Shown here one piece after another: positions 2,907-47,197 of a DNA stretch of 64,000 nucleotides (position 1 is the first letter of the stretch; each line of letters opens with the position of its first letter). The translations under genes were made by a program, and so were the position numbers. The DNA lies in the NCBI GenBank assembly GCA_014804485.1, contig JAAUZT010000021.1, positions 31,169-95,168 of the forward strand, given 5' to 3'. The notes under the pieces were generated by a model. The model was not told where the DNA came from. It searched no databases and worked only from the letters and a program-made list of their open reading frames with translations. Source of the DNA: Lachnospiraceae bacterium (GTDB taxonomy: Bacteria; Bacillota; Clostridia; Lachnospirales; Lachnospiraceae).

Positions 2907-3137
2907 GGCAGATTGCACAAAATATTCTCGAAGCTGGCATGCGGAGGAATATGAGATTTTCTTAATATTCCGTTCGATATCCAGAAATTTCGGGACAAGG
3001 ATGTCCCGAAAAGCCCGTAATGAGCCCGGACGGCGAATAGAGGGCGGTTTCGTCCGTCTGCATAACCTTGCCGGAATATTTTAGAAAATCCATATGACGC
3101 AGCCCGCCAGCTTCGAGAATATTTTGCGCAATCTGCC
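2907..3137. repeat. Structured palindromic element, copy 1
   Basis: 32-bp terminal arms 2907-2938 / 3106-3137 pair with one mismatch; inner helix GATTTTCTTAATATTCCG (2955-2972) / CGGAATATTTTAGAAAATC (3072-3090); hairpin TTTCGGGACA-AGGA-TGTCCCGAAA (2988-3011); hairpin CGGACG/CGTCCG (3027-3056). Confidence 0.85.
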
Positions 3138-12553: not shown

Positions 12554-15500
12554 TTATTTGATTACAAAGTTCTTCACAATAGGCTGTCTCGTGAAGTAAT
12601 TGCCTTTACCCGCGATCGTGACTGTTGCCGTACCGCCTCGTTTGACATTTTTACTGTAAGCCAGCGTATAATCCTTGCCTTCTTTCAGCTTCCTGCCGTT
12701 CACTTTGACAGTAACCTTCGGCTTCAAAGCTTTACCTAAGAAGGTCTGGAACTTCACATCCTCGATGTCAGTCTTAGTGATTTCCGCCTGATCAATGGTA
12801 AAGTTCAGTGTCCTGGACTTCGTATCAGGATCATCATTATCTGTAATCCAACCGTTGCCCTTCACCTTAACAGTGAGTGTAGGCTGCTTCTTACTTACAC
12901 TCATAATATTTATATTATCCTTATAACTTATGCTGTAAGCCGTATTGAGTTTCAAATCAACGGTCTTGCCATTCATATCCCGGAAGGTAACTGCCGGTTT
13001 CAGTGCCTTGCCGCTATAAGTTACGGAAGCTACATCAATGCTGAAATCTTTCAAATTTCGGGCTGACACTGTAAACAGATTCGAAATCTTCACGCTGCCG
13101 CTGTAATTGCCTTTACCTTTGATCGTCGCCGTGACAGGTGCTTTACCGTCCGTCCATTTACCGATCGCATAAGTAACTGTATAATCGCTGCTTGACAGCT
13201 CATTCATCACTTCATTCTGTGCCGCGTCATAGTTCTTAGCGCTGAATCGTAATTCCGGATTCGGTGCATATCCCGTATAAGGAATTTCCAATGAACCATA
13301 TTCCGTCTTATCTTTCGTATCGCTGTTGATCAACAGCCCGCTGTCTTCCGTCGAAGGTGTCCACTTACCGTCCTGCTTCGCTACCACATTCTTCACAGAC
13401 AGTTTCGGTGTCTGAAGCTCTCCCTTCTTGTCTTTATCGCTGTCCTTAGTAACTTCCCCTGCCAGTGTGCGCTTATTGATCGTAAATATCGCTGTCTTGG
13501 TGCCGACATATTTACCCGTACCAGTAATCGTGATCGTAGCCCGTCCTGCATTGGTATTGTTCGTATAGCCTACATAGTAACCGTCCTTATCAGAGTTTAT
13601 ACTATCCTGCTCCGTCAGTACAATGGCTTTTGTACCCGCACCCACTGTCACCTTTATATTCGGTGTGTCGCCGGTTGATGTCAGCTCCACCGGAAGGCCG
13701 GTATAATAGAATTTTCCGCTCACTGCAATCTTCACGTTAGGAATCAGATAATCCTTATCTACCACACGGAAGGATACTGACCGCTCCCCTGCATAATTGA
13801 CTTTCTCTTTCCCAGCAATCTTCACTGCATAAGTGCCCGCTGCCGTAACCTTAGCGATACCGGTCCTGTCTTCTTTAGAATAAATCGTCTCCACTTTATC
13901 TTCTGTAAGTGCAGTTCCGTTTTCATCATGTGTACGCTTGATCTCAATGATCTCATACTGGCTTGCTGCAACTGCTTTCGTGCCGTCTTTCACCGTAATC
14001 TTCGGTGCCTGCGCACTCTTCTCCGCCAGATCCGCTGCTGTCACTGTCGTATTGCTTAAGTCTCTGGGTCTGATCTCGAACGTGAACTTAGTATCACCCG
14101 CCTTACCGCCCGCCTTAAGATCTACGGTTGTTCTCGTCCCCGCAAAGTTTCCTTTACCGGTGATCTTAAGCGTCGGTACTTTCTTGTCATTGATATTCTT
14201 GTAAACAGTCTGACCATCTTCTTCTACACTGTACACACTTGCATTCATATTATTGGTGTACGTAACCGTGTAGTCCGTTCCTTTTGCCAATGTGGCTGTC
14301 TTCTCCACACCGTCCTGATCCGTGTAACTGTATTTCACAGTCACCGAAGGCTCCACCTTCTTGCCGGTATAATAATTCGGGCTGGAAGATACTGTCACTT
14401 CCACTTTTTCCTGGTTGACCGGACATTTTGCAATCGTAAAGGTTGTAGTGATCGAACCCTCTTTGTAACCGCTCGGGTCGTTCAGCGCCTTATCCGTCGG
14501 AAGTACGACAAGCGTTGCTTTGCCGATCTTCTTATTGTTCTGATAATATACCGTGTACAGAGTCGGATCAATCGCTTCTTTACTTTCATCCGTTATATCA
14601 TCTGCAATATCATACAGACTGATCTTAGGCTCAATCTCCTTTTCCTTACCAAGATAGTATACTGCCTGTGCCGCTTTATCTGTTCTGCCGTTCTTGTCAG
14701 GAGACTCGTATACAACCTTCAACTTCTTTGCACTGAATTCTTTTCTGGTATCCTCTTTAATGTCAAATAAGATTTCTCTCGTGCCGGTAAACCTATCACC
14801 CTTCGCAGTCAGCGTAATCTTCGCCTTGCTCTGCTCCGTGGTAAGATTCTTGTTATTCGCATACGCTACCGTATAATCCGCTGTTGTCAGCTTATATCCT
14901 TTATAGGATAATTCTACAACCGGTGTCACATTCTTATCCGTATAGAACTGTGCCGGGATCGGATTCTCGCCTGCCGGACTGTCGCTTTCTCCTGCGTTAA
15001 CCTGCACCAGATAATTACCGGCTTCATCCTTAGCGCTCAAATCGATCTTTTCATTCTCTCCAAAGACACTCTTAAATGTCGCGTTGACTGTTACATTACC
15101 GTTAGGCATCGTAAAGGTATCGCTCTTAGTCTCCGCTGTCTCTGCCGCATAGGTAAGCACTGCCGCATTGACCGTTCTTTCACCGGAAGCAGCCTGAAAT
15201 GCCACCGTACCGTTATTGCTTGTGAGTATATTCTCATAGTTCTCTGCAGTAATGCTTGCACCGGAAAGTGTCATGGTATCCAGATAATATCCCTGATTGG
15301 GCGTAACCGTTACATTTACTTTCTCTCCGCTGTTTGCCTTTATAACACTTATCTCAACGTTACCGTCCTTGATACCGTCGGCTACGGAAATGCTGTGTGT
15401 GCCGTAGAGGTAGAAGTCGTCCAGGCTTCCCCATACTCCGCTTGTGCCTGTCTCCGTCGCCTTGATCGTTACTCCAACTTTAACAGAATCGCCTTTCTCG

Positions 15501-18500
15501 ACCTCAACGCCCGTAATCTCCGGATTACTCCAATTTCGCCATCCGTCTAAAGTAAATGTGGTCTGTCTTCTGAATTTCCTCTCACCGTTCTCGCCAAATA
15601 CTTCCACGAAAGCATACTGCACATCTTCCGTGCCTGCACCGTCACCTTGAATATAACCGCCAAAAGTATAGCTGCCCGCCTCAGGCGTAACAGTCTGCGA
15701 TACGCTAAACTCTGCCGGGTTTTCTGACCAGAAATTCATCGCATAGTTTCCGCTTCTCGGATTTTCTTTCCAGTCTTTTTCCTGACTGCTGACGCAGCTT
15801 TCCACTCCCTCTACCTGCCAATCCGGATGAGCGGTTCCCTTCTCAAATCCCGGATCCTGAAGAATATTGGCAGAAGATGTTCTCACTATTTTAATGGTCA
15901 GTGTCAGTTTATATTCCCTGCCGCCTTCTGTTACGGTTCCGTGTACGATATATTCGCCCACTTTATCCGTATTAACTAATTCCTTCTCCTCCTGATCCCA
16001 CTGAACATCCAATCGCTCATTGGTTCCATCATTATAAGTTGCCACAGCCTTAGGATATTCAAATGTCCCGCCCAGCGGAACCTCCAAAGGATTCTGATCC
16101 TTCGCCAATCCAATACTGGAAATAGCCCTCTCTGCTGTTGCTCCTGTTCTGATCAAGCTGTAAACTTTAGCCGTAGCAAGCGCTGTTCCGTCGAAATCAA
16201 ACCATGACTGGTTATCGACCGCACTTCCGCCATACCACTTGCCGGCATCATCAGGATCATATTCAGAAGCATAACTTGCTGCCCAGCCGGAACCGTACTT
16301 CTCCCATGCCTCTTGGTTCTGCTTAACCAGCTTTTCATCGGCATTGCCATCCTCATCATATACATAATACGGAGATATCCATGCCGGCTCCCAGTAGAAT
16401 ACACCGATAGCCTGCCCCGGCACAGCATCATTGACTCTATTGACCGCATTGACAACATCACGTATCTCATCCGCCTGTCCCTGCAGAGAAATATCATAGT
16501 TCAGAGCCTGTGATGTTCTCGGCGCGGTATTCTCATGTCCGTCACCGTCATCCCAGCTTGTCGTCCATGATGTCTCTGCGACCATGACCTTCTTCTCATA
16601 TGTTTCCGCAACTTCCTTCAATACCTGGTATAGATTATCAGTTGTTCCGTGCCAGAAAGGATAATAAGAGCTTGCAAATACATCATAGTCAACGTTATAC
16701 TTCTTTAAATCCGCTGCCCAGCCCGAATACCATCCTCCTTTTTCGGGATTTGTGAAATGCAGCGCCACAAGGCATTCAGGGTCGAATTTCCTTACCGCTT
16801 TGCTGCCCGCGTTGAAAATCTTCGCCATGTTTTCTCTGGAAGTCTCTCCGCAAATAGCATTGTTAGTCTCATTGCCGACCTGTACCATGCCTACATTAAC
16901 GCCAGCATCTCTAAGAGCATTCAAGCTCGACAAGGTATAAGACTCTACCTCTGCCTCCTTCTCTGCTAAACTAAATGCTTTCCACGCCTTTGGTGCCTGC
17001 TGCTTCGCCGGGTCTGCCCAGAAATCCGAATAGTGGAAATCAATCAGAACTTTCATACCGGCATCTGTAGCCAGCTTACCCATGACCTTGGCTTTCTCTA
17101 AATCGTTGTTACCGCCGCCGTAACCTCTACCGCTCCCATCATAAGGATCGTTCCAGATACGGATACGTACCCAGTTCGTACCGCCGGCTTTCAGATATTC
17201 AAAAAATTCTGCGTCAGAAAGAGGATTACCCTCCTCATCCTTGAATACAGTTCCGCTATCTCTGAGCGATATATAGGAAGATAAGTCAGCGCCTGTGATG
17301 AAGTTACTGCTCAGCTCTACCTTCTGTACATTGATATCCGCTTCCAACGCTCCTATCGGAACTAAAGCCTTTATTGCCGCTGCCAAGTCATCATAAGCTT
17401 TATTGATCTGCGCTTCGGTGGGCGCTTCCTTGGTTGCATCCTCCTCCGCTTCCTCTGCCGCTTTCAATACCACTTCTGCTGCCGCCAGTGCGACTGTAAA
17501 TTCTTTCCAGCCTTTCTCCTTGTAATCTTCTTCCTTGAGCTCCTTAGCTTCCTCTACAAGCGTCTGTAATTTATCCAGAAGTGACAGATTCGCATCAGGA
17601 TCTGCTTCCTCCAGCGTTGCATAGAATGCACCATCTTTATAATAGGTCTTACCTGCGAAGACAGGGGTAATGTCAATACCGTAACTATTGGTCTGTCCAT
17701 TCACCAGATTCTTTTCCCATTCAAAACTGCCGGTAGCATCTTTCATATATAGATTACTTACCTTTTTGTCATCAAAGGTAAGTTCACCCGGCACAGAGAA
17801 AGTGATTGAATACCAATTCTCATGTTCCGAATCCGCCGCAAAAGGATATCCGACACTTCCGTCAACTGTCTCTTCCCCTTGCGGTTTTGCTGCTTCACCT
17901 GTTGTCTCGTCCACTACAACAATGGTACTATCCTTGCACTCCGCATCCTTCGCCACCTGCAGATAAGGTGTCTTTTCTGCACTATACATATGCAAGGTAA
18001 CCTGCCGCATGATCGATGTAGCCATGCTTCCCGCATACCCTACATCATTTTTAACCGCATAGGAATCATCATCTCCGGATATCACTTTGCCAAAGAATTC
18101 CGTATCACCTTTCGAGGCTTCACAAATATATTCCGCAACCTTATCAGTATCGTTCTCGGAAAGTGCAACAGACTTCTTAAAAATCTGGAATCCCGCATCT
18201 TTTCCGTTATTTGTGAAGCTAATCGGAACGCTGTACCATCCCGCGTATCCTTCTACCGCGGTCATTGAATAGGTATCGTCCGCTCCCCATACAGTCCACG
18301 TTGCCTGCGCTGCCTTTGAGGTTAAATCAGCTCCCCAGTGATACAATCCGATTTCTTCTTCCTCTTCCATATCACCGGCATAATAATAGAATGTCACATC
18401 AACACTCAAAGACACCATTGCGTCCATTGCACTCTTCAGGATCTTATATGCTTTTGTAATTTCGTAGTCTGTAAAGTCATCAGGCTCGTTAGCAAAATCT

Positions 18501-20740
18501 TTTAATTTTTCCGTTACATAATTCTTAGCCTCGCTAAATTCTTTCCATGATTCTGCCGTATAACCTGCCTCGCCTTTATTCTCAATCTTCTTGAGCTCAT
18601 CAGAACCCAATAGTTCTCTGAGCTGGGCAAGCGTTACTGCCTCTGCTGCATCTTGAGAGGCATAGAAGGTGAGCTTGACGTTATCACCCTCATGCTCATA
18701 TTTACAATAAGTCTTGCCAGCAAAGACAGGTGTAAAATCAATCCCCCATTCATCATCTTTTCCATTCATCAAATTCTTCGACCATGCATATCCCTTGTCT
18801 GTCTTCTCAAACAACCCGCAAATCTTTTTTTCGTCAAATTTGATTGCACCCGGTACTGAAAAAGATAAGGTATACCAATTCTCAGCATCCTGCATTTTCT
18901 CCATATCATAAACAGGATTGTTGTCTGTTTCATTATCTACTCCTGAGGTATCGATAAGAGAAATATTACCATTATCTTCATTTACCACAAATAACTTTGC
19001 AGCCGCTGAATTTTTATCCAACTGAATTACGGGTATCACATCTTCACTGTACACATTCAGAGTGATATTTCGCATAATTGCAGTTGCTTTATCAACCTTG
19101 GTAGTTTCATCGGTTCCAATATAACTTTTACCATTTTTATAGGCACAGGTTTTATTCTTGCCACCTACTATCTGGGCATAAGTATCAACGTTATCAGTAT
19201 TGTCATATTTTACTTTGAATACGGGCGAGCCATCGGTACTTTTTACATAAATCTCAAACCCTGATTCCTGGTCTGCATCTTCTAAATGAATCGGAATACT
19301 GTACCATCCCGCATATCCCGATACTGCCTCGAATAAATAGACCTTATCACTTGTATTTACTGTCCAGTCTGCCTTTGTAGCCGTCGTAGTGACCTTGTTA
19401 TCTTTGCAGTACAGACCTACTTCCTCACTATCTGTGGCATCCTCAAGATAGTAGTAGAAAGTTATATCTCCATCCGTCTGGGTTTCATCCTCTATCGCGT
19501 CAGAGAACGTTTTGTCCTTATAATATACTTTACCTACAAAGACAGGGGTAAAATCAGTCTGCCAATTGTTTTCAGTCGGACCATTCACGAAATCCGTAAC
19601 CCACGTACTTGTACCTGTATACAAACCACAGATTTTTTCTTCGCTGTTAAAGTCAAATGTGCCAGGAGCAGAAAATGTAATGGAATACCAATTTACATGC
19701 TTTGTATCCGGCTCAAGAGCATAGCCAGTGTCACCATCGACTTCCACTGAGTCCAGCTGCGTCAATTTACCGGTTTCCCCATCCACATCCACTCTCGAAA
19801 GTGTTGATTCTGTCGCATCGTGCATCTGTAGATATGGTGTGTTCGTAGCATCATACACATACAAGGTGACTTGCCGCATGATAGCCGTAACCATGTCAGT
19901 TGTGCCATCGTTAGCGTAACCCTTCCAATCTTTAACTGCATAGGATTCTATACCATCCTCCAGTAACTTCTTGTAGATTTCTGGATTGCCATCCGACCAT
20001 CCGCTAAAACCTGCAATCTTCTTTGCCTCCTCGTCTAATACCTTCCTATAGATATCAAAACCTGCTTTAGAACCACCACCGTTTTCCTTGACTTCCTCAT
20101 TCTCATTCGAAAGCGTCATATCAATCGTATACCAATTAGAATACCCTTCTACAGGCTTCATTAAATAATAACGATCGTTCCATTCTGCTTTCTTAGCTTC
20201 CTGGGACATAGTAATAATCCCCGACTCACCCCATACATCAATCCCAAGCTCAAACGACTCTGCCTCATTTTCATCAGGTTTCCAATAAAAATAGAACTGC
20301 ATCGCATCACTACTACCATTGCTATCATCCTCGACAGCCATAACACCCTTAGAATCTTCCCGAAGCTCAGCCGCTTCTTCAACATCCTTCATGTCATCGC
20401 CGTCTTCAGAGTCTGCCTCATCATCAGCCAATTTCTCATCGTCGTCCTCACCCTGCTCGCCCGAAGCACCCTCGTCCTTCTGGCCAGGATCATCCTGATC
20501 GGCATCCTCCGCTCCGCCCGCAACATCATTATCTGCATCGGAATTTCCAATCTCATCATTCTCACTCGTCTCCGCGGACGGTGTCTCGTTGATCTGCTCA
20601 TCAGCCTCCGTGAAATCTTCCACATTCGTCTGAGCCGCCTGCACTGCCATATCAGGAATCGTCGATCCCGCCAATATCATTGCCGCACTTAAGACTCCAC
20701 ACAGACTTCTTCGCAAATACTGTCTTAACTGTTTCCTCAT
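12554..20740 (-). CDS. Very large secreted modular protein with GH53 endo-beta-1,4-galactanase domain
   Basis: Signal peptide; GH53 core approx. 16140-17345 ([66 protein letters not shown]); FIVAR-like linkers; Big_4-like and CBM-like regions; long C-terminal MBG-like repeats. Confidence 0.95.
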   Translation of the reverse strand: [2728 protein letters not shown]

Positions 20741-23646: not shown

Positions 23647-24027
23647 TCATTCAGCGCTGCTTTCCGCTTCTGCCCTGCGCAGGATCTCATACATCTCCGC
23701 GATCTCTTCTTTCGACAATGCCTTCCTCTCCACCATGGTATTGAGCATCAGCCCCATTCGGCCGTCGAAGACTTTCTCCAGGAACTCTTCCGTCTCCTGC
23801 TGCACTGCCTCATCCCTGCCTACATCCGGATAATACAGCTTCGCCCGCTCTCCTTCCTCATGATGAATCGCTCCCTTCTCCTCCATGCGCCGCAGGAAAG
23901 TCATCACCGTATGCTTTGTCCATCCCGTCGTCTCCTTGAAATGATTGGTGATCTGCATCATCGTCTGCGGCGCTTCCTGCCACAACATACTCATCACCTT
24001 CCATTCCGCCTCCGATAATCTAACCAT
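23647..24027 (-). CDS. BlaI/MecI/CopY family transcriptional regulator
   Basis: LSEAEWKVMSMLWQEAPQTMMQITNHFKETTGWTKHTVMTFLRRMEEKGAIHHEEG. Confidence 0.94.
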   Translation of the reverse strand: MVRLSEAEWKVMSMLWQEAPQTMMQITNHFKETTGWTKHTVMTFLRRMEEKGAIHHEEGERAKLYYPDVGRDEAVQQETEEFLEKVFDGRMGLMLNTMVERKALSKEEIAEMYEILRRAEAESSAE

Positions 24028-24152
24028 ATCCTTCTCCCTCTAAATCCAATAATTTCATATTCTTAATTCTAGGTTTACGCTTGACTACCTATAATATAAT
24101 ATGCCGGTAGTCATTTGTCAACCCATTTTTTATAATCTGAAACTCTATGCGG

Positions 24153-24379
24153 GGCAGATTGCGACAAACGCTCTCTCGTGTCATGCGCAGTCAAATGTGA
24201 TTTTCTTAATATTCCGCTCACAGTCAGCAATTGCGGGACACGGATGTCCCGCAAAGCCCGAAACGAGCCCGGATGGCTCATTGAGGGCGGTTGCGTCCGT
24301 CCTCCACCACCTATCCCGGAATATTATAGAAAATCCATTCGACGAAGCCGACACGAGAGAGCGTTTGTCGCAATCTGCC
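24153..24379. repeat. Structured palindromic element, copy 2
   Basis: 30-bp perfect terminal arms 24153-24182 / 24350-24379; conserved core with copy 1: GATTTTCTTAATATTCCG, TTGCGGGACA-CGGA-TGTCCCGCAA (24231-24254), CGGATG/CGTCCG, CCCGGAATATTATAGAAAATCCA. Confidence 0.85.
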
Positions 24380-24588
24380 CTCTCTCCAATTTGACAGAAA
24401 ATTTATATGTTTTCACATAAATATTTAGAATTTTCCCTTCCAATTTAAAGTAATATCTGCTAAAATGGTGTTAAGAAATAAAGATTCCTGCCGATACTAT
24501 TAACAGAACAAGATGTTCACAATAATTTATCCAGGGAGGGATTGTCGCAGTATATGCAAATGAGAGGAATTATAAAGTTGAAGCGGTT

Positions 24589-46939: not shown

Positions 46940-47130
46940 CACTCGCAGTCGCTGCATAAGAGGATTCCATTGTCCGGATATTTCGACTCGGCATTATACC
47001 GGACCGCCTTCTCAGAGATTCTCCAATGGCTTGTCCCGAAATGTGGCTTTCGGTCAGACCGGTACAATCAAACATGCCTCACGGCGACGGGCTCGTACAG
47101 GATTCGCACCTGTTTCCCCGAACAATTCTT
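46940..47130 (-). ncRNA. Cobalamin riboswitch
   Basis: Minus strand CGGGGAAACAGGTGCGAATCCTGTACGAGCCCGTCGCCGTGA ... AAGCCATTGGAGAATCTCTGAGAAGGCGG ... GCCGAGTCGAAATATCCGG match the conserved aptamer segments. Confidence 0.88.
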
Positions 47131-47197
47131 TTCTATCATAATCTTTTGCATCTGCTTAGTCAATTAATAAATCTCTATGAGCATCTGCAGCTCTTAA

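Follow-up and report, generated by a model that had tools for sequence, protein, structure and literature searches.

A MITE-like repeat with a TwoAYGGAY RNA payload and co-evolving arms in motile Lachnospiraceae

The long hairpin analysed here (copy 2) belongs to a repeat that is dispersed in many copies in its host genome, is missing from orthologous sites in relatives, and holds a TwoAYGGAY RNA between its arms. A further copy (copy 1) lies in the same window, that is, in the whole 64,000-nucleotide stretch of Lachnospiraceae DNA that was analysed. The explanation that we favour, with a probability of about 0.62, is that copy 2 represents an old member of a MITE-like repeat family that carries an RNA as payload, with arms matched by the copying of one onto the other and a candidate role linked to CsrA. 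A ~290-bp repeat of motile Lachnospiraceae, the intact copies of which end in GATTCGGGTGTCAAAAGGTGC at a TA target, would carry inside its outer repeats two arms of ~30 bp and then the TwoAYGGAY RNA, and would spread by non-autonomous transposition, probably using some transposase. The arms would gain point mutations, after which one arm would be copied onto the other by template switching within the hairpin during replication; conversion between dispersed copies would assist the matching of the arms, and selection for pairing may contribute too. Mutation followed by arm copying would thus produce arm pairs that look 'replaced'.

Structure and surroundings of copy 2

In copy 2, positions 24152-24182 pair with 24350-24380 as a perfect inverted repeat (31/31 bp), with 167 nt between the arms. 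The arm letters given in the original prediction were correct and the 30/30 pairing that it described stands, the outer G-C adding one more pair. When all 251 nt of the + strand were folded, copy 2 reached -138.6 kcal/mol compared to a mean of -69.8 for shuffled sequences (z = -13.9), a value that excludes a chance origin. The features of both copies are as follows.

24152..24182, + strand: 5' arm of copy 2, outer stem with type B inner end (perfect inverted repeat, family alignment)
24183..24350, + strand: TwoAYGGAY RNA core, RF01731 model positions 1-168 (107 bits, E 4.2e-18)
24227..24294, + strand: junction closed by GCAA (24227-24230) with TTGC (24291-24294), the strongest mutual-information pairs; it contains hairpin 1 and also the stem 24256-24259/24285-24288, which bears hairpin 2
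24231..24254, + strand: hairpin 1, TTGCGGGAC-ACGGAT-GTCCCGCAA (fold, covarying pairs, GGA loop retention)
24265..24279, + strand: hairpin 2, GAGCC-CGGAT-GGCTC, with the second GGA loop (29 nt past the first GGA loop)
24350..24380, + strand: 3' arm of copy 2, outer stem with type B inner end (perfect inverted repeat)
24117..24122, + strand: possible decayed remnant of an outer terminal repeat, TGTCAA (compared with intact ends; weak)
24390..24396, minus strand: possible decayed remnant of an outer terminal repeat, TTTGACA on the + strand (compared with intact ends; weak)
2907..3137, + strand: copy 1, type A/A with one A-C mismatch (arms 2907-2938 and 3106-3137, core 2939-3105)

The contexts previously described for the two copies hold. 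Copy 2 lies between a BlaI-like gene (23647-24027, minus strand; Penicillinase_R, PF03965, 2.9e-30), past which a gene for a BlaR1 M56 peptidase is found, and a small ORF on its right, and copy 1 is found 3' of gpmI, which encodes iPGM. The site of copy 2 is shared by five species and that of copy 1 by three. Copy 2 is old and fixed, with decayed outer repeats. Elsewhere in the window, a Cobalamin riboswitch (41 bits) was detected at 46956-47151 on the minus strand, and the same strand has a 2728-aa open frame at 12554-20740, with GH53 and Big_4 domains in the part that was searched.

The interior of copy 2 matched TwoAYGGAY RNA (Rfam RF01731) over the full model at a score well above gathering (107 bits against 43), and copy 1 was found to be a second member (106.8 bits). 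Both AYGGAY-type loops are present in copy 2, as ACGGAT (24240-24245) and CGGAT (24270-24274), and the element shares with the Rfam family this full-length match, both hairpins and a Clostridiales host. The Rfam entry is typed as Cis-reg, unlike the element described here; a table from 2010 classed TwoAYGGAY as probably RNA and probably not cis-regulatory (PMC2864571). A search of the TwoAYGGAY literature returned no account of outer inverted repeats, of mobility or of ~30-bp perfect arms in a repeat.

Covariation backs the junction closed by GCAA/UUGC, hairpin 1 with its AYGGAY loop and the stem that bears hairpin 2, and the GGA loop of hairpin 1 was retained in 172 of the 178 distinct copies that make up the collected set. 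Hairpin 2 was found as UGAGCC..GGCGAA, with tandem G-A pairs, as CGAGCC..GGCGAG, and in the Watson-Crick variants GAGCC..GGCUC and CGCGCC..GGCGCG, with GGA retained throughout. Such an exchange between tandem G-A and Watson-Crick pairs while GGA is kept is an RNA signature on the + strand. Besides RNA-type covariation on the + strand, the core has a pair of hairpins whose GGA loops are nearly invariant.

A separate modification was observed in genome G027. At least five of its copies (L245, L263, L264, L265 and L266), each at a locus of its own, share one longer hairpin, GTGCTTATTAC-CCTAAAG..-GTAATAAGC, the tip of which varies, in place of the GGA loop of hairpin 1; three of the five have ordinary copies as orthologs. 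Either conversion between copies or a nested insertion would account for this. Hairpin 2 of another copy from this genome, L246, is the site of a distinct insertion, several tens of bases long.

Dispersal and outer repeats

The host assembly (3.97 Mb in 58 contigs, 85% complete) contains at least 33 copies of the ~290-base repeat, counting every match above threshold. Within the genus, carriage was patchy, with 1 to 33 copies in each of the 23 carriers among 41 genomes; in the order, carriers amounted to 27/245 well-assembled genomes and 15/117 genera, the copy counts per genome in this latter survey being lower bounds ('at least'). A pattern scan of species genomes gave mostly Lachnospiraceae MAGs, some of them labelled Roseburia or Blautia. 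Four copies from one Blautia-labelled MAG (L090, L155, L080 and L103) have arms of ~45-55 bp, some perfectly paired, the sequences of which are unlike those of the arms in the window genome.

Many copies, the younger ones, carry outer inverted repeats, GATTCGGGTGTCAAAAGGTGC and GCACCTTTTGACACCCGAATC, ~35-40 nt outside the arms. The 14-base core of the outer repeat has four perfect matches in the genome, in which single truncated ends are also present. A check of relatives for empty sites and target duplications had been proposed beforehand, and it revealed three empty sites and a duplicated TA at two of them. For L014, L015 and L023, three copies specific to the host genome, the joined flanks aligned without a break in four to six of the seven relatives searched. 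For L014, the empty site reads CTTTCCTAACNATATAATAAAG (N denotes draft sequence) and the occupied one ...CCTA[element]TAACAATA...; for L023, the empty site reads CCTTTCTACTCACTG and the occupied one ...TTA[element]TACTCACTG. Duplication of a TA target fits both, L015 being too degraded to read. The site of copy 2 was occupied in all the relatives examined. The view that the hairpin is a dispersed element, and not a cis-regulator of a single pathway, is borne out by the 33 copies and the empty orthologous sites. The outer inverted repeats, the patchy multi-copy carriage and the empty sites with TA duplication identify a MITE-like repeat that has an RNA as payload.

The repeat resembles other bacterial MITEs, such as RUP of pneumococcus (TA target, IS630-Spn1) and Correia/NEMIS, in being short, non-coding and intergenic, and in having terminal inverted repeats, a TA target and a predicted long stem-loop transcript (PMC2229807, PMC3049150). 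In contrast to them, no partner insertion sequence was found here, and the interior is a conserved RNA that covaries across genera. No DDE_3 (IS630-type) transposase was detected across nine genomes, which were draft assemblies searched for the DDE_3 family alone, and this result speaks against an IS630-type partner. A longer autonomous element with the same ends was rejected for this assembly, in which the search with the ends gave repeat copies, truncated ends and unrelated near-matches only. The site of L111/L236 (L031 near 8360, G000 contig C25), at which the element is present in two relatives, was discarded as an empty site because a GGCAGAT scar of the 5' arm indicates a deletion. A dispersed repeat of another kind, ~80 bp long (AAAAATGAACTTCGCCCAATTGCGAGATTCGC...), was observed in the flank of copy L016 of genome G000 (contig C54, around 25500), and each of the six matching relatives gave many matches to it.

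When divergence was averaged over the 26 ortholog clusters with homologous flanks, values of 0.065 for the arms, 0.066 for the core and 0.104 for the outer-repeat zone were obtained. The RNA-coding part has therefore been kept somewhat better than the ends used for movement.

Co-evolution of the arms

Alignment of the 33 genomic copies revealed a single arm consensus that ends in either of two ways on the inner side, GGCAGATTGCRCAAAATGTTCTC being followed by GAAGCTGTC (type A) or by TCGTGTC (type B); the inner ends as listed are CGAAGCTGTC for A and CTCGTGTC for B. Copy 2, of type B/B, has a local GCGACAAACGC variant, and copy 1 is A/A, with its single mismatch in the arms. The inner arms of the two copies had been taken as unrelated, but in this alignment both are variants of one consensus, and the impression that nothing was shared arose from comparing two copies only. 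It was from this impression alone that the variable inner arm could be thought of as a guide or address for other loci or phage. Such a function is very hard to credit, as the arms are homologous in all the aligned copies of the host genome and those of copy 2 are near-identical at one site in five species; guide-like arms were rejected because these segments are homologous among copies and do not vary freely.

When each ortholog cluster was counted once per state, the commonest combination of 5'/3' arms was A/B (74), followed by B/B (27) and A/A (15). True B/A copies were absent where 3.5 were expected (Fisher p 0.02), the lone automatic B/A call being a misclassified B/B copy. Pairing at the inner end is imperfect in A/B copies, and full or nearly full in A/A and B/B copies. 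In the simplest reading, A/B is the ancestral state and either arm has since been copied onto the other.

In 27 ortholog clusters comprising 535 arm columns, 22 two-sided changes and 35 extant one-sided mismatches were found, with transversions making up 13/22 of the former and 8/35 of the latter (p 0.01). By our own estimate, about one two-sided change would be expected from independent mutation at the same divergence. The original prediction had named arms drifting by ordinary point mutations with unpaired positions as the observation that would refute it. Such drift does happen, as the 35 one-sided mismatches demonstrate; yet two-sided changes lie far above the independent expectation and, as judged by comparison of orthologous copies, the arms co-evolve. 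One arm column of copy 2 reads C:G in three of the five species and G:C in the other two, with an orthologous core, and a column of L009 runs through C/C, C/G and G/G in three species.

The deduplicated mismatches comprised 44 G-U and 70 A-C in the arms compared to 73 G-U and 35 A-C in the core helices (Fisher p 1.7e-5), the p-values for arms and mismatches being approximate because paralogs are partly dependent. Selection acting on a + strand RNA would be expected to favour G-U. Such a preference is seen in the core and is absent from the arms, which supports arm copying at the DNA level and points to homogenisation of the arms via template switching. Arm-templated repair, as had been suggested from copies 1 and 2, is the best account of how the arms stay matched. 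Template-switch homogenisation of inverted repeats has been described, bacteria included, together with a role in the maintenance of RNA stems (PMC8794818, PMC8604942). As in those systems, imperfect inverted repeat arms turn identical and multibase compensatory changes appear; unlike them, the present case has arms of ~30 bp, a spacer of about 170 nt and many copies of one mobile repeat.

Two other processes could produce matched arms. Selection at the RNA level, acting through compensatory mutation, would agree with an arm conservation equal to that of the core and with the scarcity of transversions among the extant one-sided mismatches. Nevertheless, we regard it as rather unlikely, as A-C mismatches are at least as frequent as G-U in the arms although RNA selection tolerates G-U, and as the two-sided changes are rich in transversions compared to the one-sided ones. 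Two-sided changes could also derive from replacement of whole elements by recombination between dispersed copies. In 18/70 clustered elements the core resembles a paralog more closely than the ortholog, and L012, L124 and L019 join a core swap to an arm change; the multi-column arm changes in core-swapped clusters imply that ectopic conversion accounts for part of the two-sided changes. As the sole source of them, replacement is improbable, since copy 2, L009, L018/L116 and L030 changed on both sides while their cores are orthologous. Arm copying by template switching, assisted by conversion, is therefore the account that we retain.

Candidate CsrA binding and significance

Binding of CsrA was first proposed for TwoAYGGAY RNA in PMC4333381. 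Hairpin 1, ACAYGGAUGU, with a six-base GGA loop and AC/GU closure, closely resembles the CsrA SELEX consensus RUACARGGAUGU (PMC7652899). The hairpin stems exceed in length those of typical CsrA SELEX ligands, which counts against the proposal. The csrA gene was present in 27/27 carriers compared to 157/245 genomes overall (p 2.5e-6; p 0.003 at genus level). In the same 245 genomes, the controls fliW (157 positives) and flagellin (163) occurred in nearly the same genomes as csrA. The link is therefore with a flagellar-CsrA module or with motile lineages and is not specific to CsrA, so that the co-occurrence loses weight as specific evidence.

No enrichment of promoter signals was detected in the copies (16 observed vs 20.9 by shuffle) nor of terminator signals, with almost no T-runs past the arms. 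With respect to both tandem neighbours, cluster representatives from all genomes were antisense in 61 cases and sense in 24 (p 7e-5, from naive ORF calls). This bias is the opposite of that expected for RNA sites kept in mRNAs and counts against a CsrA/mRNA role; together with the lack of promoter and terminator enrichment, it also argues against a simple sponge. The CsrA-titrating RNAs CsrB/CsrC and RsmY/Z likewise have paired GGA hairpin loops; unlike them, the element has no more than two sites in each RNA, is dispersed in many copies and showed no promoter. A predicted binding of CsrA through the two GGA hairpins, serving for titration or for marking of repeat-bearing transcripts, is put forward tentatively as the most likely RNA function, at somewhat less than even odds.

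The same absence of a promoter signal, together with the antisense bias, arms that show no preference for G-U and the patchy carriage, would also fit an RNA core that is a mere passenger of a DNA repeat, whose perfect arms would work at the DNA level (as a cruciform or in transposase recognition) and whose + strand RNA would have no function for the host. This we consider unlikely given the strand-specific G-U excess in the core, its covariation, the tandem G-A exchange and the nearly invariant GGA loops, and given that arms and core diverge less in ortholog clusters than the adjoining outer-repeat zone (0.065 vs 0.104). An RNA payload with a candidate CsrA role remains our preferred reading. 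Its widest form, in which a transposable repeat would spread putative CsrA-binding hairpins in motile gut Lachnospiraceae as a dispersed Firmicutes counterpart of CsrB, with arms perfected by DNA template switching, is speculative and probably goes too far.

TwoAYGGAY, an RNA family that has lacked a function since 2010, is the payload of a mobile repeat; many of its 'conserved' copies are paralogs of that repeat, and their conservation needs to be read anew. The many orthologous arm pairs lend themselves, as a natural data set, to the study of how template switching homogenises inverted repeats in a bacterium. RNA control of CsrA in bacteria that use FliW has been stated to be undetermined (PMC7652899) and, if the GGA hairpins do bind CsrA, the repeat would bear on that control.
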